A stretch of 64,000 bases of DNA from contig NZ_CP101466.1 in the NCBI RefSeq assembly GCF_024362385.1, forward strand, positions 1,922,001-1,986,000, given 5' to 3'. The first letter of the stretch is position 1. Every line of letters begins with the position of its first letter. Origin of the DNA: Arthrobacter sp. DNA4. Lineage in GTDB: Bacteria > Actinomycetota > Actinomycetes > Actinomycetales > Micrococcaceae. The notes below the pieces were generated by a model. That model ran no database searches, was not told where the DNA came from, and saw nothing but the letters and a program-made list of their open reading frames with translations. Positions 49,850 through 64,000 of the stretch are shown one piece after another. A program made the translations under genes and the position numbers.

Positions 49850-49872
49850 CCAATTTGGGGAAGAATGAAGGC

Positions 49873-50370
49873 ATGGAGACACGATGGCTTACAAGGGATG
49901 AATTGGCCGCCTGGGTGCGGCTGTATACGGTGGTCGAGCTGCTGCCGAATGCGCTTGACTCCCAGCTCCGCCGCGACGCGGATCTGACGAACTTCGAGTA
50001 CTACGTGCTCGCCATGCTTTCGGAAGCTCCGCGGCAGACGCTGAGGATGACAGATCTGGCAGCGCAGACGAGCGCCACGCTGGCGCGCCTGTCCCACGTA
50101 GTAAAGCGTCTTGAAGCACGCGGCCTGGTGGAGCGCTTTCCGTGCCCCGAGGATCGGCGTGCAACCAACGCCCGCCTCACCGCCGGGGGGCAGCGCAAAA
50201 TTGTCGAGACCGCGCCCGGGCATGTGGAAAACGTGCGGCGGAACGTTATCGATGCACTAACTCCGGAGCAGCTCGGTCAGTTGCGGGGGATTGCCGATGC
50301 CTTGTTGGAGAAGCTCGACCCTGACGCAGCGATGGCCCCTCTGTACCGCCGGCATGACGGGCCTGAGTGA
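49873..50370 (+). CDS. MarR-family repressor (MhqR-like position)
   Basis: The product has 165 residues. The winged helix is complete: LRMTDLAAQTSATLARLSHVVKRLEARGLVERFPCPEDRRATNARLT. MarR proteins of this type sense phenols, quinones or salicylate. ATG 49873 is chosen (GGGGAAG 9 bases upstream); TTG 49855 would add 6 residues. The paired dyads upstream and at the DoxX promoter suggest autoregulation and control of the reductase and DoxX genes. Confidence 0.9.
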   Translation: METRWLTRDELAAWVRLYTVVELLPNALDSQLRRDADLTNFEYYVLAMLSEAPRQTLRMTDLAAQTSATLARLSHVVKRLEARGLVERFPCPEDRRATNARLTAGGQRKIVETAPGHVENVRRNVIDALTPEQLGQLRGIADALLEKLDPDAAMAPLYRRHDGPE

Positions 50371-51645: not shown

Positions 51646-52395
51646 CTAGATCCATTTCGGTGCTGCGGGGGTGCCTTCGGTGGTGCCCGGGCCGGTGGCG
51701 GTGACGCCGCTGTTGCCGCGGCCGGCGGCCCATTCGGCGACGGCGGGGAGCGGCCCGGTGATGATCGTTGGGTCAGCGGTGCCCGCATCGCCAAACGCCA
51801 GGTCCGTACCGTCCACCGTGACGAGGAGTCCGGTGTCGGTGCCGCGCGTGTGCCAGGCGCCGGTGATGTCCTTGATCAGGCGTTCCAGGACCGGTGCGGG
51901 GATGTCGCTGAAGCTGGCTCCGTTGTCCAGGTCCACGGCGTGCATCCAGACTTCGCGGGTGCGCATCCAGACGGTTTCTTCGGCGGGGACGGTTCGGCCC
52001 TGGGCGGTCTTGACCTTGTGGTGCCAGTTGTCGGCGGGCAGGTCGCGCCATTCGACGTTGAGGTGCACGGCGGAGTGGTCGAAGAGGTGCCGCAGTGCGA
52101 TGGGGGAGAGGGTGGCGCCGAAGTCGATTTCATGGTTTCGGGCCTCGGGGGAGGGGTACATGGGTGTTTCCACGCCGGTGGCCGCCCATTCCACCAGCCG
52201 CGCGATGGCCCGGGCGTTGTAGCCCACGTGCGCTACGACGTGCCGGCGCGTCCACCCCGGAAGGCGGGTGCCGCCGTCGAGCTCTGCATCGGAAAGCTCG
52301 TTGAGCTTGCGGGCGAAGAACGCGGTGCCACGCCGCGCCTGCAGGAGGTCTTCCTGCAGGCGCGGGTCTGTGGTTTGGTCGTGGCGGGCGACCAT
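51646..52395 (-). CDS. Mycothiol-dependent maleylpyruvate isomerase
   Basis: The product has 249 residues. The MDMPI N-terminal metal site is visible: His in RHVVAHVGYN (about 52-56), Glu in LNVEWRD and His in REVWMHAVDLD. It isomerises maleylpyruvate to fumarylpyruvate with mycothiol as cofactor, which supports an actinobacterial host. The start overlaps the previous stop (TGATG). Confidence 0.88.
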   Translation of the reverse strand: MVARHDQTTDPRLQEDLLQARRGTAFFARKLNELSDAELDGGTRLPGWTRRHVVAHVGYNARAIARLVEWAATGVETPMYPSPEARNHEIDFGATLSPIALRHLFDHSAVHLNVEWRDLPADNWHHKVKTAQGRTVPAEETVWMRTREVWMHAVDLDNGASFSDIPAPVLERLIKDITGAWHTRGTDTGLLVTVDGTDLAFGDAGTADPTIITGPLPAVAEWAAGRGNSGVTATGPGTTEGTPAAPKWI

Positions 52396-53219
52396 CAGGC
52401 TTCCTTGACCACGCGGTTGGTCAGCTGGCCCAGGCCCTCGATGGTGGTGACCAGGACCTGGCCTTCCTGCAGGTAGCGCTTGGGGTCCTGGGCGTGGCCC
52501 ACGCCGCCGGGGGTGCCGGTGGCGATCACGTCGCCCGGGTTCAGGGTGATGATGGTGGAGATGTAGGAGACCAGGTATTCCGGGGTGAACACCAGGTCCG
52601 AGGTGGGGGTGCTCTGCTGGACTTCACCGTCCACGGCGGAGGTCATCAGCGGGCTTACCGTGAACTCGTCCTTGGTGACCAGGGCCGTCCCGAACGGGGT
52701 GGACTTCTCCCAGGTCTTGCCCTGCAGCCACTGGATGGTGCGGAACTGGTAGTCGCGCATGGAGACATCGTTGAGCACGGAGTACCCGGCGATGTGCTCA
52801 GCGGCTTCGGACTCGGGAATGCGGCGGTAAGCCTTGCCGATGACGACGGCGAGTTCGGCTTCCCAGTCCACGGTGTCCGATTCCTGCGGCAGGGCCAGGT
52901 CGTCATTGGGGCCGATCAGGGACTCGGCATACTTGGCGAACAGGGTGGGGTGCTCGGGAACCTCCCGGCCCATTTCCTTGATGTGGTTGCGGTAGTTGTG
53001 GCCCACGCAGATGATCTTGCCGGGGGCGGGGACGACGGCGGCGAGGTCGGCGCCGTCCAGGGCATGCGTTGCGCCGTTGCCCGCCTTCGCGGTGGTTTCC
53101 CAGTTGGGGTCCTTCAGCAGGGCCCCGACGTCGGAGAACCCCGGGATCTCGGTCAGGGTGTCGCCGTCCTGGCGGACCGCCTTGTTGCCGGCAGGAGTGC
53201 GGAGGGTGAGGAGTTTCAT
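52395..53219 (-). CDS. Fumarylpyruvate hydrolase (FAH superfamily)
   Basis: The product has 274 residues. FAH-fold landmarks are ICVGHNYRNHIKEMG, TLFAKYAESLIGPNDDLALP, DWEAELAVVIGKAYR with metal-binding Glu, GYSVLNDVSMRDYQ and the terminal GDVIATGTPGGVG. It splits fumarylpyruvate to fumarate and pyruvate. TAATG overlap with the dioxygenase gene shows tight coupling. Confidence 0.92.
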   Translation of the reverse strand: MKLLTLRTPAGNKAVRQDGDTLTEIPGFSDVGALLKDPNWETTAKAGNGATHALDGADLAAVVPAPGKIICVGHNYRNHIKEMGREVPEHPTLFAKYAESLIGPNDDLALPQESDTVDWEAELAVVIGKAYRRIPESEAAEHIAGYSVLNDVSMRDYQFRTIQWLQGKTWEKSTPFGTALVTKDEFTVSPLMTSAVDGEVQQSTPTSDLVFTPEYLVSYISTIITLNPGDVIATGTPGGVGHAQDPKRYLQEGQVLVTTIEGLGQLTNRVVKEA

Positions 53220-54340
53220 TACTTGGTGCGTCCTTCGATGTGGGTGCGGTTGAAGTTCAGGCGCTCAAAGATGGGTGCGTCGCTGAACCGGAACAAATCA
53301 AACTCGGATTCGGCCTGCAGGGACCAGGCGGCCCAGGACGGGACCACGAACAGGTCGCCCTTGGCCAGGACCCTGGTTTCGCCGTTCAGGGTCACGGTGC
53401 CGGTGCCCTCGAAGACCTGCCAGACACTGGAGCCCACCTCGCGGACCGTCTCGGTCCCGGCGCCGGTGCGGAGCCGGTGGAACTCGGCCCGGATGGTGGG
53501 CATGACATCCCCGCCGGTGGTGGGGTTGGTGTACCGGATGGCGGCGTGGCCCTGGGACACTGTGGCGGGGTGGCCCTCGTCCTCGAGGAGGAGCTGTTCG
53601 CGCAGGGCGGCGTCGGTGTACTTCCACCGGTAGGCGGCGATGGGGGAGTTGGTGGTGTTTTCCAGGCCGGAGAGCGGGCGCAGCCCGGGGTGGGCCCAGA
53701 GCCGCTCGGAACGGGAGATGTCCGGGGTGGCCTCGTCCGTGACGCGCTCGGTGCCGAACTCGAAGAACCCGGCATCGGCGTAGTGCACGAACGGGATGTC
53801 CAGCCCATCGATCCAGGCCATGGGCTCATCGGTGTCGTTGTGGTGGCCGTGGAAGTTCCAGCCCGGGGTGAGCAGGAAGTCGCCGCGGGACATCCGGACC
53901 GGGTCACCGTTCACCACCGTCCACACGCCCTCACCCTCGACGACGAAACGGAACGCGTTCTGCGAGTGCCGGTGCTCCGGGGCTGTTTCGCGGCCGCCCA
54001 GGTACTGGATGGCAGCCCACAGCGTGGGGGTGGCATACGGGGTGCCGCCCAGGCCCGGGTTGGCCAGCGCGATGGCACGGCGTTCCCCGCCGCGACCCAC
54101 CGGCACCAGGTCCCCGGCACGGGCGGCCAGCGGGTACAGGTCATCCCACCGCCATACATGCGGAACCGCCTTCGGTGACGGGACCATCGGCATCAAATCA
54201 CCGATCTCCGTCCACAACGGAATCAGGTTCTCTTTATCAAAGTCCCGGTACAACTGCTCAAGCTGGGCAGCCTCCTCCGGCGTGGGCTCAGGCACGGAGT
54301 GGCTGGCAGCAACGGATTCATGCGTCAGGTTCTCAGTCAT
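53219..54340 (-). CDS. Gentisate 1,2-dioxygenase
   Basis: The product has 373 residues and two cupin domains. The first holds the iron site around PEHRHSQNAFRFVVEGEG and WNFHGHHNDTD; the second around VWQVFEGTGTVTLNG is degenerate. YPLAARAGDLVPV and GGRETAPEHRHSQ are family-typical. It opens the gentisate ring to maleylpyruvate. It lies 9 bases after the ligase gene. Confidence 0.93.
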   Translation of the reverse strand: MTENLTHESVAASHSVPEPTPEEAAQLEQLYRDFDKENLIPLWTEIGDLMPMVPSPKAVPHVWRWDDLYPLAARAGDLVPVGRGGERRAIALANPGLGGTPYATPTLWAAIQYLGGRETAPEHRHSQNAFRFVVEGEGVWTVVNGDPVRMSRGDFLLTPGWNFHGHHNDTDEPMAWIDGLDIPFVHYADAGFFEFGTERVTDEATPDISRSERLWAHPGLRPLSGLENTTNSPIAAYRWKYTDAALREQLLLEDEGHPATVSQGHAAIRYTNPTTGGDVMPTIRAEFHRLRTGAGTETVREVGSSVWQVFEGTGTVTLNGETRVLAKGDLFVVPSWAAWSLQAESEFDLFRFSDAPIFERLNFNRTHIEGRTK

Positions 54341-54349
54341 GGCAATCCT

Positions 54350-56023
54350 CTACTTTGAGTTGGCGCTGGCAGTCGCCAGCCGCTCGGCGATATCGGCTCG
54401 GAGTTCCTTTTTGTTGATCTTGCCGACCTTGGTGGCAGGCAGCTCGTCGACTACAACGAGGTGCTCAGGGATCTTGAAGGCAGCCACTCCTGTATTTCGG
54501 AGGAGCTCCTGGATTTGTTCAAGAGTCACTTCCGTTCCCGGCTTGACGGTGATGTAGAGGCACAGTTTTTCGCCCAGCACCGCATCCGGCATAGCGACAG
54601 CGGCAGCCATGGTGACGTCCTCGAGCCGGTAGACGAGGCTTTCAATTTCCTCTGCAGAGATTTTCTCGCCACCGCGGTTGATCATGTCCTTGTCGCGGCC
54701 CTGGACAATGAGGTTCCCGTCCGGGCGGCGCTCCACGATGTCGCCGCTTGCGTACCAGCCGTCAGGGGTGAACGCCCTGGCATTGGCTTCGGGCGCACGG
54801 TAGTAGCCTCTCGGGGTGTAGGGCCCCCGGGTCAGGATTGAGCCCGGGACTCCATCCGGGAGGTCATTGCCCGCCTCATCCACAATACGAATCTCGTCTG
54901 CTTCGGAGACTGGACGCCCTTGGGTAGTACAGATCACCTCTTCAGGATCGTCCAGACGGGTCATGTTGATGAGCCCTTCGGCCATGCCGAAAACCTGCTG
55001 CAGCGTAGCCCCAAGTACGGGTTTGACCTTGTGGGCGATCTCATCGGGCAGACGGGAACCTCCGACCTGAATCACCTGCAGGGTGGTGAGCTGGTCCCCA
55101 CCCGTCTCCTCCTGGTGCTCGATCCAGCGCTGCGCTACGGCGGGGACTGCCGTGGAAAGCGTGACGCCCTCCCGCTCAATGGCGGCAAACGCCTTGCGCG
55201 GTTCGGGGCTCGGCAACATGACCACCCGGCCGCCGGCAAAAAGGATGCCCAGGATCCCGGGGCAGGCGAGGGGAAAGTTATGGCTCGCCGGCAGAGTGCC
55301 CAGGTACACAGTGTCCTCGGCCACAGCCGTAGGTACGGATGTGGCCTTGATGTTGTACGCGTAATCGTTGTGGGTGCGCGTGATGAGCTTGGGCAGTCCC
55401 GTGGTGCCCCCTGATAACAGGAACAGGGCAGGTGAGTCTGGGGATGGGGCAGCCGCATCCAGGCGGGCCCTGGCGCCGGCGGGGTCTGTTCCCGGGGCCA
55501 GGATCTCTTCGAGACGTACGTTGAGGGGGTTGGCGGCGCCGGATACGAGGATCAGTTCCAGCGAGGGTATCGCTTCAGCCAGCTCCTCGGCCAGCGACTG
55601 GTGGTCGAAATCCTTGATAACGTCGGGCACGGCGATAGCCCGGGATTCGGACAGCTCAGTGAGGAACGACAGCTCGTACTTTCGGTGCGCGGGCAAGGCC
55701 ATGACCGGCATGATGCCTGCACGGAAACAAGCCAGGGTGAGTATGGTGAACTGCCACCCGTTCGGCAACTGGATCATGATGCGGTCGTCCGCTTTAAGCC
55801 CGAGCTGCAGCAGCCGCTCGGCGGCCGCGTCCATCCGATTGACGAGCTCAGAGTAGGTGATACGAACATCGCCGTCTACGAGCGCAACTTTGTCGGGTAG
55901 GCGGTCGGCAGTCTCGATGACGTAACTGCCGAGAGCACGGTCTTCCCAGTAGCCCTTGGCACGGAATGCGGCTGCAAGGTCTGCGGGCCAGGGGGTGGTT
56001 CCCTCACTGGTATGGCTTGTCAT
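54350..56023 (-). CDS. sdgA: Salicylyl-AMP ligase (DHB-AMP ligase family)
   Basis: The product has 557 residues. Adenylation motifs are A3 LLSGGTTGLPK, the aromatic-acid pocket sequence ASHNFPLACPG typical of 2,3-dihydroxybenzoate/salicylate AMP ligases, A5 FGMAEGLINMTRLDD, A7/A8 YASGDIV...GRDKDMINRGGEKI and the catalytic Lys in ATKVGKINKK. It activates salicylate with ATP. The operon context with a salicylyl-CoA hydroxylase matches the Streptomyces sdg pathway. It is not a siderophore ligase here, since no NRPS is nearby. ATGA overlap with the NDP-forming synthetase. Confidence 0.88.
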   Translation of the reverse strand: MTSHTSEGTTPWPADLAAAFRAKGYWEDRALGSYVIETADRLPDKVALVDGDVRITYSELVNRMDAAAERLLQLGLKADDRIMIQLPNGWQFTILTLACFRAGIMPVMALPAHRKYELSFLTELSESRAIAVPDVIKDFDHQSLAEELAEAIPSLELILVSGAANPLNVRLEEILAPGTDPAGARARLDAAAPSPDSPALFLLSGGTTGLPKLITRTHNDYAYNIKATSVPTAVAEDTVYLGTLPASHNFPLACPGILGILFAGGRVVMLPSPEPRKAFAAIEREGVTLSTAVPAVAQRWIEHQEETGGDQLTTLQVIQVGGSRLPDEIAHKVKPVLGATLQQVFGMAEGLINMTRLDDPEEVICTTQGRPVSEADEIRIVDEAGNDLPDGVPGSILTRGPYTPRGYYRAPEANARAFTPDGWYASGDIVERRPDGNLIVQGRDKDMINRGGEKISAEEIESLVYRLEDVTMAAAVAMPDAVLGEKLCLYITVKPGTEVTLEQIQELLRNTGVAAFKIPEHLVVVDELPATKVGKINKKELRADIAERLATASANSK

Positions 56024-58056
56024 TTCATGTCCTCCTCGACATTGATCACTACTGCGTCCAGCGCCAACAGCCCTTGGTGGGTCAGGCGCAGGGGATTAAT
56101 TTCGATTTCCGCGATGGCCTCATTGGAGACGAGCGCGTCTCCCAGCCGGACCAGGAGGCCCGCCAGTTCTGCTGTATCCAGCATTGGACCGGAACGGAAG
56201 CCGTACAAGAGGTCCCGTGCCTGCAATTCGGTAAGCATTCCCTCGGCTGCCCTCGGTGCCAGTGGCGCAGTCCGGATGGAGATGTCCGCAAATACTTCCG
56301 CAGCGGTGCCGCCGAGGCCCAAAACCACGATCGGTCCAAAGACGGGGTCGCGCCGGACGCCGACAACAAGGTCGACGCCGGAGGGCGCCATCGCCTCAAC
56401 GAGGAATTCACGCGCGCCGGCGGCCTCAAGTGCTGCCAAGGCGTGGTCCATCTCCTCTAGGGACTTAACGCCGAGGTGCACGCCGCCGATCTCCGTTTTG
56501 TGCAGAATTGCCGCGTCCAAGAGCTTCACAGCCACCGGACCGCCAAGTTCCGCCAGCGCCTCCTGCGCTGCGGTGCGGCTGCTGCACACGCGGCGTTCCG
56601 GCGTCGGAATGCCAAGCGCTCCCAGGAGTTCTTTGGAACGGTTCTCATCCCACGGGCCATCAATGTTCGGCCATGTGACGGTGCCGGCAGGTTGTTCGGC
56701 CTTCTCGAACTGACCCCTGGCATCGTGCACGAGGGCGGAAATGCCTTGGGCCAGCGACGTCGGCCCGGAGATCAGTGGAAGATCGTGCTGGCGCGCGGAT
56801 TTGCGGGCCCGCTCCTGGTCCCCCTCAGGGCCGTCCACCCCTACAAGAAACGGCATCGTGTCGGCTACACCGGAGTTGGCCACGGCGAGCGGCAGGTCGG
56901 TCACGGGTTCGGTCAGGCCATAAAGAGCGACGACGTCGATCGACGGGTCTTGTGCCACGGCGGCAACTATCTGCTCGTACCCTGGTCCGGGGCGGCCAGT
57001 GTCAACAGGGTTTGCCTGGAACGTCAGTGGCGGGAGCAGGGTGCTGATGGTGTCCTGGCTGCTTTGTGCAAGCCGGGGGAGCGCCACGCCGGCGCTGTGC
57101 AAAGCATCCGCGATCAGCAAGCCGGGTCCCGCTTGCCCGGTGATGAGGCCTACTCCAGGGTCCGCAGAAGGCTTCAACCGGCGCCCGGCCAATGCGGTGA
57201 CGGCGGCAACCAGTTGAATCTCGTCGTCGACGATTACCGCGCCTGCCTGCTTGAGGACCGAACGCGTGGTGCGCCAGGATGTAGCCAGCGCACCGGTGTG
57301 GGACTGGGCGAATTCCGAAACATCGTTGCGGCCCACCACCAATGCGACAACAGGCTTCACGGCGCTGAGGCGGGAGACGGCGTCGATCAGGGCAGGACCA
57401 TCTGAAACGGTTTCCAAGTGCAGCGCAACTGCCTTGGTCTGGTCATCAGCTATCAGGTAATCCAGCACATCGGGAGCGGTGATGTCGGTACCTGCACCGA
57501 TTCCGGCCGCAAGGCTGACTCCGGCGCCGGAGTGCTCGAGGTGGAACGCAAGGACGTGGTTGACGCCGCCGCTGGCCGCGACGACAGCAACCGATCCGGG
57601 CTCCAGCTCGGCTACTCCAGGAACAAAGCTGGCTCGGAGATTGCGGTGGGGGACGAAGAATCCGGAGGTGTTGGGACCCAGCAAGCGGATACCTGTTTCC
57701 CGCACCGCGGCCTCGACCTGGGCCGCGTACTCGAGACCCGGGCCGCCGGCTTCAGCAAAACCCCCAGCGCACACTAGCGCTGCTTTGGCACCGCTTGCTG
57801 CACTGTCCCGCAGCGACTGGGCGGTAGCTGCGGTAAGCACACAAAGCACTGCGAGGTCAGGGCCGCCGGGTATCGCAGCAGCGGCAGAGGCGATACTGGT
57901 GTGCATGCCGTTCTCGCCCCTGCTGTTCACCAGCTCAACGGGGGCGCTGTAGCTTGAGAGTGACTGCGCCATCACAGCGCCGAGCTTCTCGGGGCTGCCC
58001 GACGCCCCGACAACGATGATGCCCTGGGGAGCGAAAAGGGCAGACAGGCTATGCAT
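56020..58056 (-). CDS. NDP-forming acyl-CoA synthetase-like protein of the salicylyl-CoA pathway
   Basis: The product has 678 residues from ATG 58056 (8-base overlap with the hydroxylase gene; GGGGG upstream). Domains in order are a CoA-binding Rossmann region (IIVVGASGSPEKLG, about 13-26), two succinyl-CoA-ligase-like domains with the probable phospho-His in SHTGALA (about 255), and an ATP-grasp domain from about 460 (AVKLLDAAILHKTEIGGVHLG; AEIEINPLRL). All key ATP-grasp residues look intact. In this operon it either makes salicylyl-CoA directly with ADP release, or moves the salicylyl group from the AMP ester to CoA. Which is true cannot be read here. Confidence 0.85.
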   Translation of the reverse strand: MHSLSALFAPQGIIVVGASGSPEKLGAVMAQSLSSYSAPVELVNSRGENGMHTSIASAAAAIPGGPDLAVLCVLTAATAQSLRDSAASGAKAALVCAGGFAEAGGPGLEYAAQVEAAVRETGIRLLGPNTSGFFVPHRNLRASFVPGVAELEPGSVAVVAASGGVNHVLAFHLEHSGAGVSLAAGIGAGTDITAPDVLDYLIADDQTKAVALHLETVSDGPALIDAVSRLSAVKPVVALVVGRNDVSEFAQSHTGALATSWRTTRSVLKQAGAVIVDDEIQLVAAVTALAGRRLKPSADPGVGLITGQAGPGLLIADALHSAGVALPRLAQSSQDTISTLLPPLTFQANPVDTGRPGPGYEQIVAAVAQDPSIDVVALYGLTEPVTDLPLAVANSGVADTMPFLVGVDGPEGDQERARKSARQHDLPLISGPTSLAQGISALVHDARGQFEKAEQPAGTVTWPNIDGPWDENRSKELLGALGIPTPERRVCSSRTAAQEALAELGGPVAVKLLDAAILHKTEIGGVHLGVKSLEEMDHALAALEAAGAREFLVEAMAPSGVDLVVGVRRDPVFGPIVVLGLGGTAAEVFADISIRTAPLAPRAAEGMLTELQARDLLYGFRSGPMLDTAELAGLLVRLGDALVSNEAIAEIEINPLRLTHQGLLALDAVVINVEEDMK

Positions 58057-59623
58057 CGGTCGCCCCCACGTTTGCCTCAGCAACGGCGTCAGTACGGCCT
58101 GAGAGCACCAAAGTCAGGTTGGATGCCGTTCCTCGATCATCAACGATGATACTGGTCAGGCCGCGTCCGAGGCGTGCCTCTTCCGACAGGAGGATCCGGG
58201 TGAATGCATTGCCGCCCTGGATCACAACAGCCGCAGCTTCTGCAGGCAATTTCGTGAAGGCGGCCGCGAGGCCAGCTTCCGTTTCCGGCGCCGTGAGCAG
58301 CAGGGCAGTGTTGATGTTGGCCTGAGCCGGATCCGTAACCACTGCGATGCTTCCGCCCGGTCCGGACAACGCAATGTCCGTGCCCTCGGTGGAGAGTGTC
58401 AGCAAGCGCCCGCCAAGCTCTGTCGTTCCCGCGCGAAGCGGAGTTTCAAGGGGCGCATGCCCGTGCCTGTCCAGCCAGTCCTGTTCAGCGGAGGCAACGA
58501 GCTCCGGATCCCGCAGGCGGATCTTATCGATGTCGATGCTGCGCGAGAAGAAATGGAAGGTGAACTGGGTGGGCTCGAAGGAGTTGTAGTACCTTGCGAA
58601 GTGCTCCCACCAGCTCAGGCCGCCACGGGCCTGGTTTTGGATCTTGGCCACCTGCGGTTGGCGTTCTGCCTCGTAATTGGTGAAGGCCTGCTCAAGGTCA
58701 TCCTGGTGGGCAGCCACTTCACGGACCAGGGTGATGGCGTCCTCCATGGCCATCTTCGTGCCCGAGCCCACGGAAAAGTGTGCCGTGTGGACAGCATCCC
58801 CCAGCAGGACGACGTTGTCTTTGTGCCAGGTCCGCGTCCGCCGGGTCCGGAAGTTGGCCCACCGGGAGTTGTTAGCTACCAGCGGCTCCCCGGCGATGTC
58901 TTCGGCGAACAGCTTTTCAAGGAACCGCTGCGTCTTCAGGTCCGAGGGGCCTGGAGGCTGGCTCGCATCGAACTCGTCCAGGCCTGCCTTCCGCCACGTG
59001 TCTTCGTCCGTTTCAACAATGAAAGTGCTGAGGTCCTCGCTGATCGGATAACCGTGTACAGCGAAGTTGCCAAATTCGCTTTGCCGATGAACGAAGGTAA
59101 GTCCGTTGAACATGTACGTTGTACCGAACCAGATGAACTTGGCGGTTGCTGTCTCGGTGGTGTGACCCAACGACTCGCCCAATTGTTCGCGAGTGGACGA
59201 ATTGGCGCCGTCTGCACCGACGATGAGGTCGAAGTCCGCCAGTTGCTGCAGGTCGGGGACGTACTGGCCAAAGCGCATGTCCACACCAACTTCGGCGGCG
59301 CGTTCCTGCATTAGCTTCAGCAACGTCTTGCGGTAGATGGCGGCCATGCCGTTGCCGCTGAAGGACTTCTGTTCACCTTTGAGCCAGACTTCGATGTCCT
59401 CCCAGTGGGTGCCGTAGTCGCGGAGGCCGTCCCGAACCACGGGGTCCGCATCGTTTATGCGGTTGAGCGTGGCGTCGGAAAACACCACGCCAAAACCGAA
59501 GGCGTCGGTGGCCTGGTTGCGTTCAAAGAGTACGACCTCGGCGTCCGGGACGGTCTGCTTGAACAGGGTTGAGAAGAACAGTCCGCCGGGACCGCCGCCA
59601 ATGCAGGCTACGCGAAGTGCCAT
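58049..59623 (-). CDS. sdgC: Salicylyl-CoA 5-hydroxylase (FAD monooxygenase)
   Basis: The product has 524 residues. The FAD-binding GGGPGG is at 9-14, the RxxL/DG-type region LIVGADGANSSTREQLG near 150 and GDAVHTAHFSVGSGTKMAMEDA near 280. The layout (flavin domain plus a C-terminal thioredoxin-like extension, about 400-524) is that of CoA-ester aromatic hydroxylases such as SdgC. It hydroxylates salicylyl-CoA at C5; gentisyl-CoA then loses CoA. ATG 59623 has AAGG 8 bases upstream. It is the first gene of the operon, 54 bases downstream of a TTGACG-type promoter. Confidence 0.88.
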   Translation of the reverse strand: MALRVACIGGGPGGLFFSTLFKQTVPDAEVVLFERNQATDAFGFGVVFSDATLNRINDADPVVRDGLRDYGTHWEDIEVWLKGEQKSFSGNGMAAIYRKTLLKLMQERAAEVGVDMRFGQYVPDLQQLADFDLIVGADGANSSTREQLGESLGHTTETATAKFIWFGTTYMFNGLTFVHRQSEFGNFAVHGYPISEDLSTFIVETDEDTWRKAGLDEFDASQPPGPSDLKTQRFLEKLFAEDIAGEPLVANNSRWANFRTRRTRTWHKDNVVLLGDAVHTAHFSVGSGTKMAMEDAITLVREVAAHQDDLEQAFTNYEAERQPQVAKIQNQARGGLSWWEHFARYYNSFEPTQFTFHFFSRSIDIDKIRLRDPELVASAEQDWLDRHGHAPLETPLRAGTTELGGRLLTLSTEGTDIALSGPGGSIAVVTDPAQANINTALLLTAPETEAGLAAAFTKLPAEAAAVVIQGGNAFTRILLSEEARLGRGLTSIIVDDRGTASNLTLVLSGRTDAVAEANVGATDA

Positions 59624-59676
59624 CGATGCCACCTTCTAAGGATTGGGAATTCGGTGAGAGAGGTCTCGGCAACAAG

Positions 59677-59717
59677 TATGTAACCAATCGATGCGCACCG
59701 TCAAGTATTTGTTACAT
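59677..59717 (-). promoter_or_regulatory. sdg operon promoter with PaaX-type operator
   Basis: On the minus strand TTGACG (59704-59699), 16 bases and TACATA (59682-59677) form the promoter. Inverted half-sites ATGTAAC (59678-59684) and GTTACAT (59711-59717, plus-strand reading) are separated by 26 bases and cover the -10 and the region just upstream of -35. The same layout recurs at 60695-60735. Confidence 0.75.
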
Positions 59718-60563
59718 GTCAGCAGCCGCCATCTCCTGAACCTCCTGGCCCGGGCCAACTGAGTGCCCCAGGATTCGCGAAACGTACTCGGTGGCCTTGG
59801 GACCCAATTGCCTGTGGGCGGCTCCGAAGAGCCGGTACGCATCACTGCTTGGCCAGTTTTCGGGCTGGAGTTCTGCCGGCAGGTATGGGTCCCGGAAGAG
59901 GAAGCGGCGAAAGTCTCCGATGATGCGCGTCCGGTCGATAAGGGCCTCGCGCCCATCTTTTGCAGCATTGCCGGCCTCGTCGTTGAGGGGTGCATAGGTC
60001 GCCATGAACCGCTCGTAGTCGCTTCCGAGTTGACCCAAGTCCCAGCATCTCGCGGCCAGCTCGCGGTCTTTTGCAGGATCTCCGGTCCCGCACCAGAGCG
60101 CGTCGACTTTCGCGGATGGGTTTTCGTCGGCAATCTCCCGGACTTCGGTCATCAGGTCATGGGGGCTGAGCCATGTGGAGGGTGAAAGCTGGCCGAAGCC
60201 ATGCCAGGCGAGCTGCTTCCGCAGTTGCTCCCGGACTGAACGTTCTGATTCTGGAACCTGGTAGATAGCCATCGTCCACCGGCCATTCCAGCTGTCATCC
60301 CGGCGACGGAAGATCCGCTCACGCCCCTCGTCGAGGATGTCGAGCATATGCGGCGTGAGTGCATAGACCGTCTCCCGGCCTACGCGCCGGGTGGTGAACC
60401 AGCCTTCCTTCCGCAGGCGGGAAAGGTTGACCCGTACGGTCGCAGGCTCAATGTCGAAAACTGCCAGCAGTGCCGTGATATCAGCGAGCTTGACCTCGCT
60501 GCCTGCGTATCGAAGGTAATCCCCAAAAAGGTCGAGGATCAGTGCTCTGGGTTTCCACTGCAT
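59712..60563 (-). CDS. PaaX-family repressor
   Basis: The product has 283 residues from ATG 60563 (GGAGGG upstream); ATG 60575 is an alternative. The N-terminal winged helix (VKLADITALLAVFDIEPATVRVNLSRLRKEGWFTTRR) and the DDSWNGRWTMAIYQVPESER and LSPHDLM segments match PaaX, which responds to aryl-CoA thioesters. Here the effector is plausibly salicylyl-CoA or gentisyl-CoA. It lies between the two promoters that carry the shared long-spaced inverted repeat. Confidence 0.9.
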   Translation of the reverse strand: MQWKPRALILDLFGDYLRYAGSEVKLADITALLAVFDIEPATVRVNLSRLRKEGWFTTRRVGRETVYALTPHMLDILDEGRERIFRRRDDSWNGRWTMAIYQVPESERSVREQLRKQLAWHGFGQLSPSTWLSPHDLMTEVREIADENPSAKVDALWCGTGDPAKDRELAARCWDLGQLGSDYERFMATYAPLNDEAGNAAKDGREALIDRTRIIGDFRRFLFRDPYLPAELQPENWPSSDAYRLFGAAHRQLGPKATEYVSRILGHSVGPGQEVQEMAAADM

Positions 60564-60694
60564 GGAACCCTCCATATCTTTGCGCCGCGCTCAACGGGCG
60601 GCTCGAGCCAATGTGAAACAAGTATAGGAAGGTGCGGCCGCGCATCAGCCCCGCGGGATCGTCACGTTTCCGGGCGGTGGGCGTGTCAAAATTT

Positions 60695-60735
60695 ATGCAA
60701 CTTCATCTTGACGCCCAACGGTTTAATGTTACATT
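60695..60735 (+). promoter_or_regulatory. Transporter operon promoter with PaaX-type operator
   Basis: TTGACG (60708-60713), 16 bases and TACATT (60730-60735). Half-sites ATGCAAC (60695-60701) and GTTACAT (60728-60734) are again 26 bases apart, with the right half-site on the -10 box and the left one upstream of -35, the mirror of the sdg promoter. Confidence 0.75.
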
Positions 60736-60813
60736 TATTTGTGGGTCAGGTCACAACTGGCCCCCACGTTCTCTGGAACCACCACAACGTCGTGTATTTC
60801 ACCTGGAGTCCTC

Positions 60814-62163
60814 ATGGCTTTTCAATCGCCAGCCCCGTCCTCGGTTCGCCCCCGCAAGTCTGCGGGTATTGTCATTTTTCTTTGCTTCCTGGCCATTGTT
60901 TTCGACGGCTACGACTTGGTCGTCTATGGCGCCATCGTTCCCAAGCTTCTGGCATACAAGCCCTGGGGGCTCTCGCCAGTAGAGACGGGAGCGATCGGCA
61001 GTTACGCTCTTGCCGGAATGTTCATCGGCGCGATCCTTATCGGTTACCTCACTGATATCGTTGGCCGCCGCAAGGTCATGATGGCTTCCATCGCAGCCTT
61101 CTCACTCCTGATGTTGCTGACCGCTTGGGCCCCCACCCCGGAACTGTTCGGCCTTTTCCGCTTCCTGGTAAGCCTGGGCCTGGGCGGTGTCATCCCGACG
61201 GCCATTGCGTTGACGGTCGAGTTCTCCCAGTCCCACCGCCGGAATTTCAACAACGCCCTGATGTTCTCCGGGTACGCCGTGGGCGGCATCCTGGCTGCTC
61301 TGCTGTCGCTTGCTTTCCTGTCGTCATTGGGGTTCCAGGGCATGCTCGCCCTCGGCGGCATTCCCTTGGTTGTGGTTGTTCCGCTGCTCTTCAAATTCCT
61401 CCCGGAGTCGCCGGCCTACCTTGCAGCGAAAGGCGACAGGGCGCAGGCCGAGCGAATCGTTGCCGACTACGGCCTTGACCAACTGCCGCCCGTCCGGATT
61501 GGGGGAGACACGCCTGAGAAGGGCAGGTTCCGCACCCTGTTGACGGGTAAGCTCCTCGCCGCAACAGTCCTTTTTTCATTGGCTGGCATCTGCGGGCAGA
61601 CCCTCGTGTACGGCTTGAACACCTGGCTTCCGCAGCTCATGGTCATTGCTAAGTACTCGCTGGCTTCGTCGCTGACCTTCCTGCTCACGGTCAACATCGG
61701 CGCCGTCGTGGGCGTGCTCGTATCGTCCCGGATGGCCGACAAATTCGGGCCCCGCAATGTAACCGCCATTTCGTTTGCATGCTCCGGCGTCGCACTGGTT
61801 CTCATGGGCACTGGAATCATGCCGTTGGTCGCGATGTACTTCCTCGTCGCGGTGGTGGGCTTTGGTTCAGTTGGCGCCCAGATCCTCGTGAACGGCTTTG
61901 TAGCCACGTATTTCTCTGGCGCCACACGGGCGACTGCCTTGGGCATCACACTGGGAATCGGGCGCATTGGGGCCGTCTTGGCCATCTCCGGCGGTGGCGT
62001 CCTGGTGGCTGCCTCCCTGGGCAACTTCATCAATTTTTCCATCTGGGCGGTAGCGGCAGCGATCGGCGTCGTCGCCGTCCTGGCGGTTCCGCGCCGGGGC
62101 GCCACCCAAGCAGAAAATGCAAGCGCCCCGGCTGCAACGTCCGCGAATACCATTCATCACTAA
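60814..62163 (+). CDS. Aromatic acid:H+ symporter (AAHS-family MFS)
   Basis: The product has 449 residues and 12 transmembrane helices. FDGYDLVVYGAIVPKL in helix 1 (the conserved DGxD), GYLTDIVGRRKVM in loop 2-3 and PESPAYL in the central loop are typical of BenK/PcaK/GenK transporters. It probably imports salicylate or gentisate. GGAG lies 5 bases before ATG 60814. It is the first gene of a plus-strand operon with the aldehyde and alcohol dehydrogenases. Confidence 0.92.
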   Translation: MAFQSPAPSSVRPRKSAGIVIFLCFLAIVFDGYDLVVYGAIVPKLLAYKPWGLSPVETGAIGSYALAGMFIGAILIGYLTDIVGRRKVMMASIAAFSLLMLLTAWAPTPELFGLFRFLVSLGLGGVIPTAIALTVEFSQSHRRNFNNALMFSGYAVGGILAALLSLAFLSSLGFQGMLALGGIPLVVVVPLLFKFLPESPAYLAAKGDRAQAERIVADYGLDQLPPVRIGGDTPEKGRFRTLLTGKLLAATVLFSLAGICGQTLVYGLNTWLPQLMVIAKYSLASSLTFLLTVNIGAVVGVLVSSRMADKFGPRNVTAISFACSGVALVLMGTGIMPLVAMYFLVAVVGFGSVGAQILVNGFVATYFSGATRATALGITLGIGRIGAVLAISGGGVLVAASLGNFINFSIWAVAAAIGVVAVLAVPRRGATQAENASAPAATSANTIHH

Positions 62164-62222: not shown

Positions 62223-63674
62223 TTGCAGACGCAACTCATCATCGACAACCAGCCCCGGGATGGCCGTGAGGGCAAGACATTCGAACGCCGGCACCCTGTA
62301 ACCGGTGCTCTCGTGACCGAGAGCGCAGCAGCGGACGTGAACGATGCACTGGATGCCGTGGAGTCGGCGTCGAAGGCCTTCAGTACCTGGTCCACCTCGG
62401 GACCGAGCGAGCGCCGCGCAGTGATGTTGAAGGCTGCTGAGATAATGGAGCGCCGCGGACCGGAATTTATCGAGACCATGATGTCCGAGGTTGGCGCCGC
62501 AGGGCTTTGGGCAGGTTTTAACGTATTTCTGACCGCGCAGCTGTTCCGCGAAGCCGCAGGACTTGCAACCCAGATCCAGGGCGAGACCTTGCCGACGGAC
62601 AAGCCGGGAACCCTGTCGATGACTATTCGGCAGCCGGCTGGAGTTGTCCTCAGCATGGCGCCGTGGAACGGTGCCGGAGTGTTGGCAGCGCGTGCCATCG
62701 CGTATCCCATTGTCTGCGGTAACACGGTTGTTTTCCGCGCCTCGGAGACCAGCCCCAAAACCCATGCGATCATTGCCGAGGTCCTGCATGAAGCCGGTCT
62801 TCCCGCGGGCGTCCTGAACTTCTTGACCAGCACCGCTGAAGACTCCGATCGGGTAGTTGAGGCAATCATTGCCCACCCTGCGGTTCGTCGAATCAATTTC
62901 ACGGGGTCAACGGCCGTGGGCCGCATCATTGCCGAGAAGGCCGCCCGGTATCTGAAGCCTGTCCTGCTCGAGCTCGGGGGTAAGGCCCCGTTCGTGGTGC
63001 TCGATGATGCCGACATCGATGGTGCCGTCAACGCAGCAGTCTTTGGTTCATTCCTGTACCAAGGCCAGATCTGCATGTCCACTGAGCGTTTTGTGGTTGA
63101 CGAGAGCGTTGCCGACGAATTCGTTGAAAAGTTCGCTGCCCGCGCTGCCCAGGTTACAGCCGGTGACCCACTTACGGATGAGGCATGCATTGTTGGCCCC
63201 ATGATCCGCGAAGAATCCGGCACCAGGATCAACGGTCTCATCGACGACGCCCTCGCGAAGGGTGCTGAACTGGTGGTTGGTGACCGCGCCAACGGCGCCT
63301 CAATGCCTGCCACGATTGTCGATAAGGTACGGCCCGAGATGGACATTTATGACCAGGAGACGTTCGGTCCCATTACCACTGTGGTTCGCGTTTCCGGGGT
63401 CGAAGAGGCAGTCCAGGTTGCCAACGATACCGAGTACGGCCTGGCAGCTGCGGTCTTTGGGAAGGACAGCACGCGCGCTCTGCAGGTAGCTATGCGGATC
63501 CAGGCAGGCCATGTCCACGTGAACGGCGCCACGGTGCAGAACGAGGCACAAGCACCGTACGGCGGCATGAAGAACAGCGGATACGGGCGGTTCGACGGCC
63601 GGGCAGTCATCAACGAATTCACCGAGCTCAAGTGGATCACCGTTGAGCAGTCCGACCAGCAGTACCCGTTCTAG
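62223..63674 (+). CDS. Aldehyde dehydrogenase, salicylaldehyde/vanillin type
   Basis: The product has 483 residues. The catalytic Glu is in ELGGKAP and the Cys in GQICMSTE; NFTGSTAVGR is the NAD motif. The aromatic-aldehyde subgroup is suggested by SMAPWNGAGVLAARAIAYP and by HVHVNGATVQNEAQAPYGG near the end. In this operon it should oxidise salicylaldehyde to salicylate. The start is TTG at 62223 with AAGGAG 5 bases upstream. Confidence 0.9.
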   Translation: MQTQLIIDNQPRDGREGKTFERRHPVTGALVTESAAADVNDALDAVESASKAFSTWSTSGPSERRAVMLKAAEIMERRGPEFIETMMSEVGAAGLWAGFNVFLTAQLFREAAGLATQIQGETLPTDKPGTLSMTIRQPAGVVLSMAPWNGAGVLAARAIAYPIVCGNTVVFRASETSPKTHAIIAEVLHEAGLPAGVLNFLTSTAEDSDRVVEAIIAHPAVRRINFTGSTAVGRIIAEKAARYLKPVLLELGGKAPFVVLDDADIDGAVNAAVFGSFLYQGQICMSTERFVVDESVADEFVEKFAARAAQVTAGDPLTDEACIVGPMIREESGTRINGLIDDALAKGAELVVGDRANGASMPATIVDKVRPEMDIYDQETFGPITTVVRVSGVEEAVQVANDTEYGLAAAVFGKDSTRALQVAMRIQAGHVHVNGATVQNEAQAPYGGMKNSGYGRFDGRAVINEFTELKWITVEQSDQQYPF

Positions 63675-63706: not shown

Positions 63707-64000
63707 ATGCAGGTAACCGCAGCGGTGGCCAGAGAGCCACATCAGCCACTGAGCATCGAGAATCTCGAACTGGATGAACTTCGTCCAAACGAAGTTCGGG
63801 TCAAGATGGCAGCGTCAGGTGTTTGCCACACCGATGCCATCGTCCGGGACCAGGTATATCCGACTCCGCTCCCGGCCGTGTTGGGACACGAAGGTGCAGG
63901 CATTGTGGAGCAGGTGGGCAGTTCCGTCACGACGGTAAAGCCGGGTGACCACGTTCTGCTCGCCGCGGCATACTGCGGAAAATGTGACCGGTGCCGTTCC
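63707..64000 (+). CDS. Aryl-alcohol dehydrogenase (zinc MDR family), partial
   Basis: Only the first 98 codons are inside the window; the gene runs off the right edge. Catalytic zinc ligands are in GVCHTDA and LGHEGAG, and the structural zinc site begins at YCGKCDRCR. The sequence is of the benzyl-alcohol dehydrogenase (XylB-like) type. AAGGAG precedes the ATG. With the aldehyde dehydrogenase it would turn salicyl alcohol into salicylate. Confidence 0.88.
   Translation, partial: MQVTAAVAREPHQPLSIENLELDELRPNEVRVKMAASGVCHTDAIVRDQVYPTPLPAVLGHEGAGIVEQVGSSVTTVKPGDHVLLAAAYCGKCDRCRS

Follow-up and report, generated by a model that had tools for sequence, protein, structure and literature searches.

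A long-spaced inverted repeat in two promoter-like regions accompanies a PaaX-family gene in Arthrobacter

Introduction

What reads the two long-spaced inverted repeats that stand on either side of a PaaX-like gene in Arthrobacter sp. DNA4? The stretch of DNA analysed here, hereafter the window, comprises 64,000 nucleotides of contig NZ_CP101466.1, and it carries ATGYAAC-N26-GTTACAT without mismatch at 59678-59717 and again at 60695-60734, exactly where a preliminary description of this DNA had placed the two copies. That description took them for a new half-site, set on an architecture known from enterobacterial PaaX, in two promoters of a salicylate regulon.

The passages of a review that deal with PaaX of E. 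coli give its site as TGATTC(N27)GAATCA and its inducer as phenylacetyl-CoA, and describe how it competes with RNA polymerase at two promoters (PMC9493321). They report a similar site for PaaX of Pseudomonas sp. Y2 (styrene, phenylacetate), and a title cited there for this strain names the co-regulation of its upper and lower pathways. Among actinobacteria, K2Z90_RS32760 of Rhodococcus opacus, a member of the PaaX family, is described as regulating an aromatic pathway negatively (PMC11186279). The terms 'binding site' and 'palindrom' are absent from the main text of a 2026 survey of the phenylacetate pathway (PMC13186573). A literature search over titles and the starts of abstracts, mainly of non-subscription articles, returned among the matches listed none that we recognised as describing a salicylate PaaX or this half-site.

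Results

The repeats sit on two promoter-like sites

The exact pattern occurs at just these two places in the 4,557,566-base genome, against about 0.018 expected from base composition and none with the reversed control. Allowing up to two mismatches adds no place with one mismatch and eight with two, the control giving three. When three mismatches are tolerated, a scan of the window returns four matches, which are these two sites read on both strands, and since 2.4 are expected this count alone proves nothing. The motif was chosen from this same sequence, so the real test lies in the relatives.

In the direction of transcription, the hydroxylase side reads ATGTAAC-AAATAC-TTGACG-N14-GTTACAT and the transporter side ATGCAAC-TTCATC-TTGACG-N14-GTTACAT (Table 1). 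Both copies have one half-site 6 bases 5' of TTGACG and the other over the -10 region. A sigma-70-type scan of positions 59550-60850 finds two promoter-like sites, exactly these, where shuffled sequence gives a mean of 0.4. The -10 box TACAT had been placed 16 bases from TTGACG in both promoters. This holds for the transporter, but on the hydroxylase side it is one of two readings, because the scan prefers CATACT, 18 bases from TTGACG. The hydroxylase-side ATGTAAC also supplies the final Met codon and the stop codon of the paaX-like gene (59712-59717), so that the coding sequence of paaX overlaps the operator predicted there.

Table 1. Positions of genes, promoters and predicted operators (window coordinates, except in the last line)
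Feature	Position	Strand	Evidence or remark
MarR-family regulator, just past the far end of the gentisate genes	49855-50370
Mycothiol-dependent maleylpyruvate isomerase-family protein	51646..52395	-	PF11716; TIGR03083 over cut-off
Fumarylacetoacetate hydrolase-family protein, probable fumarylpyruvate hydrolase	52395..53219	-	PF01557
Gentisate 1,2-dioxygenase-like cupin	53219..54340	-	PF07883; best NCBIfam TIGR02272, below cut-off
Aryl-AMP/CoA ligase, probable salicylate activation	54350..56023	-	PF00501; best NCBIfam TIGR02275, below cut-off
NDP-forming acyl-CoA ligase-like protein	56020..58083	-	PF13549, PF13607, PF13380
Salicylyl-CoA 5-hydroxylase-like FAD monooxygenase	58049..59632	-	PF01494; first gene behind the hydroxylase-side operator
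Hydroxylase promoter	59675..59704	-	TTGACG 59704-59699; -10 TACATA 59682-59677 or CATACT 59680-59675
Hydroxylase-promoter operator (predicted)	59678..59717	-	ATGTAAC 59717-59711, N26, GTTACAT 59684-59678
PaaX-family regulator, 287 aa, proposed binder	59712..60575	-	PF07848, PF20803, PF08223 over cut-off
Transporter-promoter operator (predicted), upstream of paaX	60695..60734	+	ATGCAAC 60695-60701, N26, GTTACAT 60728-60734
Transporter promoter	60708..60735	+	TTGACG 60708-60713, N16, TACATT 60730-60735
Aromatic-acid MFS transporter, first gene after the transporter-side operator	60814..62163	+	PF07690; best NCBIfam TIGR00895, below cut-off
Aldehyde dehydrogenase, 3' of the transporter	62223..63674	+	PF00171
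Zinc alcohol dehydrogenase, runs past the window end	63707..64000	+	PF00107, PF08240 (L092 808-1914)
Repeat in genome G096, before a pilin-like gene	L093 8147-8187 (= L031 1501-1541)

The gene between the repeats and its neighbours

The gene between the two repeats had been assigned to the PaaX family, and its product does carry the N-terminal PaaX, central Cas2-like and C-terminal PaaX domains of that family, all three over cut-off. The solved structure nearest to it by sequence is that of E. coli PaaX (8a39). Its match to the PaaX equivalog model TIGR02277 scores 198.4 bits, below the cut-off of 264.55, and we therefore speak of a PaaX-family regulator, which need not be the phenylacetate PaaX itself.

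A salicylate pathway is known from Streptomyces sp. WA46, whose genes are, we presume, those called sdg. The pathway passes through salicylyl-CoA and employs a salicylyl-AMP ligase, a probable salicylyl-CoA synthetase, a 5-hydroxylase and gentisate dioxygenase, and the published order of salicylate, salicylyl-CoA, gentisyl-CoA and gentisate is matched by the leftward genes of the window; the passages on this strain name neither a regulator nor an operator (PMC4600096). The leftward set is probably a salicylate-to-gentisate pathway. The label of salicylate regulon fits the domains and the best matches, but the hydroxylase, the AMP ligase and the dioxygenase fall below the curated equivalog cut-offs, so that the salicylate names rest on best match and context. 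For the hydroxylase, the best NCBIfam match (NF006101, a model of a bifunctional protein) reaches 410.5 bits for a cut-off of 1078 and spans model positions 1-413 of 768. On the other side, the best match of the transporter, TIGR00895, stands for aromatic acid/H+ symport; its start codon, the ATG at 60814, was picked by inspection, the mechanical open reading frame beginning at 60739. Judging by gene content, the transporter-side operon could supply salicylate from salicyl alcohol or salicylaldehyde.

In the genus sample the exact repeat occurs only with the gene

The genus sample comprises 206 genomes, 115 of them with some PaaX relative and 25 with one of at least 64% identity. The exact repeat, with N26 or N27, is present in 23 of the 25, always next to paaX, and in none of the other 181, which include 90 genomes with only weaker PaaX relatives. 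Absence of the motif from homologous loci with the same regulator had been named in advance as the outcome that would speak against it; the scan found the motif present with the regulator and missing without it. The association of repeat and gene over the 206 genomes gives p = 1.7e-28 (Fisher test), a figure that overstates independence since the genomes are related. The two genomes lacking the exact form are one mismatch (G389) and one to two mismatches (G878) away from it.

Identical spacing of the two copies, which the preliminary description had stressed, is a property of the window but mostly not of its relatives. The hydroxylase-side site has N26 in all 25 genomes with the gene, whereas upstream of paaX the spacing is N27 in 23 of them and N26 only in the window genome and in G376; the identical spacing in the window is hence unusual. 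These counts come from two scans (7 and 18 genomes). Five further loci from named records have similar sites and were not added to the 25, as they probably belong to the same genomes.

An alignment of 12 loci shows invariant core half-site columns, except for one at 11/12; the outer A of the upstream half is kept in 9/12. TTGACG is present in 12/12. The rest of the spacer varies more, with 14 of its 20 columns at 10/12 or less. By site, the core halves are TGTAAC (12/12) and GTTACA (11/12) on the hydroxylase side, and TGCAAC and GTTACA (11/12 each) upstream of paaX. When 7-bp arms with one mismatch were counted in the 24 regions of the 12 close loci, several other spacings scored high too, and we do not use this count as evidence.

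Additional gene copies and exchanged neighbours bear on the link with paaX. A second paaX, 62-64% identical to that of the window, lies in tandem with the first in G123, G244, G823 and G859. Each of these genomes has a third repeat, with N27, between its two copies; that of G244 deviates by one mismatch. The second copy of G878 is on another contig. One paaX or two fill the stretch between the two sites in the loci examined. In G376 the neighbouring transporter is a different one, only 52% identical, yet the variant AGTAAC-N26-GTCACA stands upstream of paaX. The paaX-upstream N27 site is kept in L140 (G801), where the window's transporter was not found within the 1.5-kb flank, and in L139 (G878), where the transporter match is just 53 residues long. 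Since this site persists without the window's transporter, it may serve paaX or another gene.

The family sample of 395 genomes has 20 with the exact pattern. Six of these are among the seven genomes with a gene of at least 78% identity. We judged the other 14, which lie away from close paaX relatives, to be unrelated. Eleven, all from one other genus, share one near-identical sequence, and in the single locus inspected (L019) it lies at the start of an alcohol dehydrogenase-like gene. In two, the matched letters show on inspection a contiguous hairpin. The last, in G096, is a perfect ATGTAAC-N27-GTTACAT before an Flp pilin-like gene, in a genome with no PaaX relative among those listed; this match is probably due to chance.

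Distant relatives and a sister clade

A hydroxylase relative adjoins paaX in each of four distant loci (L039-L042; 45-58% identity). With at most one mismatch, TGTNAC-N27-GTNACA gives three sites there, in L039, L040 and L041, where 0.12 are expected at N26 and N27 together and none of 300 shuffles reaches three; the scan found no such site in L042. The hydroxylase promoters of the four loci have no site within one mismatch. That of L041 contains AGTAAC-N26-GTTACT, a two-mismatch form with a symmetric change in both halves, and that of L042 another two-mismatch N26 form; L039 and L040 have none. With two mismatches allowed in the distant loci, N26 and N27 do not rise above other spacings, and we do not use this count as evidence; perfect inverted repeats tallied by spacing over 13 distant loci (L067 at wrong coordinates) display no clear peak. 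The flanks of loci with PaaX genes of 30-37% identity were read as well and gave no operator assignment.

In the tree, the close, second-copy and distant PaaX rows form one group (98/95). Eight sister loci with 40-48% identity, clade B, form a separate group, at 90/91 in the drawing and at 98/95 in the tree table, which sets clade B against all other labelled groups; L067, a short record, was omitted from the clade-B counts and from the tree. A hydroxylase or gentisate dioxygenase relative adjoins six of the eight clade-B loci. The repeat was not found in the flanks scanned (8 of 9 loci, 40-48% identity), nor was the motif found in G902 and G848, two genus genomes with a PaaX relative of 42%. 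Three of the nine loci scanned have CGTTTC or TGTTTC, 6 bases, and then TAGACG or TTGACG. At L063 2383, L065 2337 and L070 2406 (minus strand) this arrangement is followed by the GACGNNCGT element. A symmetric second half of the CGTTTC/TGTTTC element was looked for in the scanned loci and not found. The element is possibly a different operator.

We take the RVNLSR or RVTLSR stretch of the close and distant rows to be the recognition helix. Among the rows with a readable PaaX sequence, the second copies of L006 and L007 have RVSMSR at the corresponding place, and seven of the eight clade-B rows have RVV-x-x-R. Such differences fit a change of half-site, though they are only suggestive.

Discussion

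A conserved inverted repeat with a long spacer covers both promoter-like regions and tracks one PaaX-family gene. The repeats are very probably docking sites of the neighbouring PaaX-like regulator, and we hold it likely, with considerable confidence, that they are operators of a PaaX-like repressor encoded between them. In the absence of substrate, the repressor would occupy both half-sites, one just 5' of the -35 box and one on the -10 box, about three helical turns apart. It would thereby cover the promoters of the operon that runs from hydroxylase to isomerase and of the divergent operon of transporter, aldehyde dehydrogenase and alcohol dehydrogenase, and block RNA polymerase. A CoA thioester of the pathway would then free the DNA of the repressor; as E. 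coli PaaX responds to phenylacetyl-CoA, salicylyl-CoA is by analogy the likeliest candidate. Direct binding, repression, inducer and operon structure are all parts of this scheme that we infer. Several findings weigh against it: the genus genomes are related and so do not count independently, the motif is missing from the scanned flanks of clade B and from G902 and G848, the hydroxylase promoters of the four distant loci have no site within one mismatch, L042 has none at all at this limit, perfect repeats show no clear spacing peak in distant loci, G096 has a perfect match without a listed PaaX relative, and E. coli paaX itself has a weaker match only.

Could the repeats be something else? The motif was picked after viewing the sequence, and about one such pair per genome is expected at any of 61 spacings, so a chance likeness of two AT-rich promoter regions deserves mention. 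Yet chance does not explain why relatives conserve the arms at fixed spacing or why the arms keep company with the gene, and we give it next to no credence. It is only slightly less far-fetched that two strong promoters simply have core elements in common, an extended -10 and a stretch ahead of the -35, and that the arms are these elements and no operator. GTTACAT does overlap the -10 region in both, but the upstream half belongs to neither the -35 nor the -10 hexamer, and its core, the reverse complement of the other half, is just as conserved; the exact pair is also missing from each of the 181 genus genomes that lack the gene. We rejected both chance and core promoter alone on the column conservation in the 12 loci and on these 181 genomes.

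A more serious contender is another transcription factor, of the TetR, GntR, MarR or some other family, that controls the same genes and has PaaX as a mere neighbour. Inverted repeats are common to many regulator families, and a MarR-family gene lies near the operon's far end. Against this, one or two copies of paaX take up the stretch between the sites in the examined loci, extra tandem copies of paaX come with extra sites, presence of the motif follows the paaX clade, and long spacers are a known habit of PaaX. We regard a foreign factor as improbable. PaaR of Burkholderia cenocepacia, a TetR-type repressor of phenylacetate genes that answers to a CoA thioester (PMC9493321), belongs to another protein family and has a compact 15-bp inverted repeat, whereas the arms in the window and its relatives are 26-27 bp apart.

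The system that most resembles the proposed PaaX-like operators is that of E. coli PaaX, a repressor of the same protein family in aryl-CoA catabolism, with inverted 6-bp arms about 27 bp apart. The long-spaced enterobacterial repeat, cited in the preliminary description, can be recovered in K-12: TGATTC-N27-GAATCG precedes paaA and TGTTTC-N28-GAATCA precedes paaZ, each one mismatch from the published consensus, and the paaX promoter has a weaker match only (two mismatches, N26). With six-base arms, the arm centres are 33-34 bp apart in E. coli (N27/N28) and 32-33 here (N26/N27). The half-site differs: TGATTC serves phenylacetate genes, whereas we find TGTAAC, TGCAAC and TGTGAC at salicylate genes. 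The placement differs too, as the repeat here encloses the -35 and covers the -10 in both promoters, and the second half at E. coli paaA ends 13 bases before the annotated start codon. Within the literature searched, the predicted half-site TGTNAC is new, and the long-spaced geometry is already known from E. coli PaaX. The loci of relatives support the predicted new half-site on this architecture, with a spacing of 26 or 27. As far as the review describes it, PaaX of Pseudomonas sp. Y2 differs in both pathway and half-site. K2Z90_RS32760 concerns phenylacetate genes, and the passages on it name no operator (PMC11186279).

If the PaaX-like operators are right, the long-spaced geometry has been kept while half-site and pathway changed, and the locus offers a ready test case for how one repressor spans 33 bp, as well as a salicylate-responsive promoter pair usable as a sensor part. 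For one clade of salicylate regulators in actinobacteria, the proposal says what operator, regulon and logic of control to expect, and the operator prediction is both useful and testable. We put forward more tentatively, as less likely than not, that the wide geometry (6-bp arms, 32-34 bp from centre to centre) is a trait of the whole PaaX family while the half-site is specific to clades: TGATTC in enterics, TGTNAC in the salicylate regulators of Micrococcaceae, and perhaps TGTTTC in the sister actinobacterial clade. If so, PaaX would act as a rigid clamp of wide span that lies over a whole promoter, and a change in its recognition helix alone could alter its specificity.

Two minor observations concern other control elements at the locus. 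The sequence TGTGGGTCAGGTCACA lies at 60740-60755 of the window, 4 bases 3' of the transporter -10 hexamer. We take this box to be CRP/GlxR-like. Its letters YGTGGGTYAGNTCACA are conserved in 11 of the 12 loci, and the location of the box over the likely start site suggests a second control, of the catabolite type. On the minus strand at 60613-60626, TATACT runs straight into TGTTTCAC; this may be the promoter of paaX, with a single weak half-site. The window has this weak half-site only, and five loci (L005, L012, L123, L124 and L125) have a fuller repeat upstream of paaX, CGTAAC-N27-GTTGCA; the paaX-like gene may control itself.
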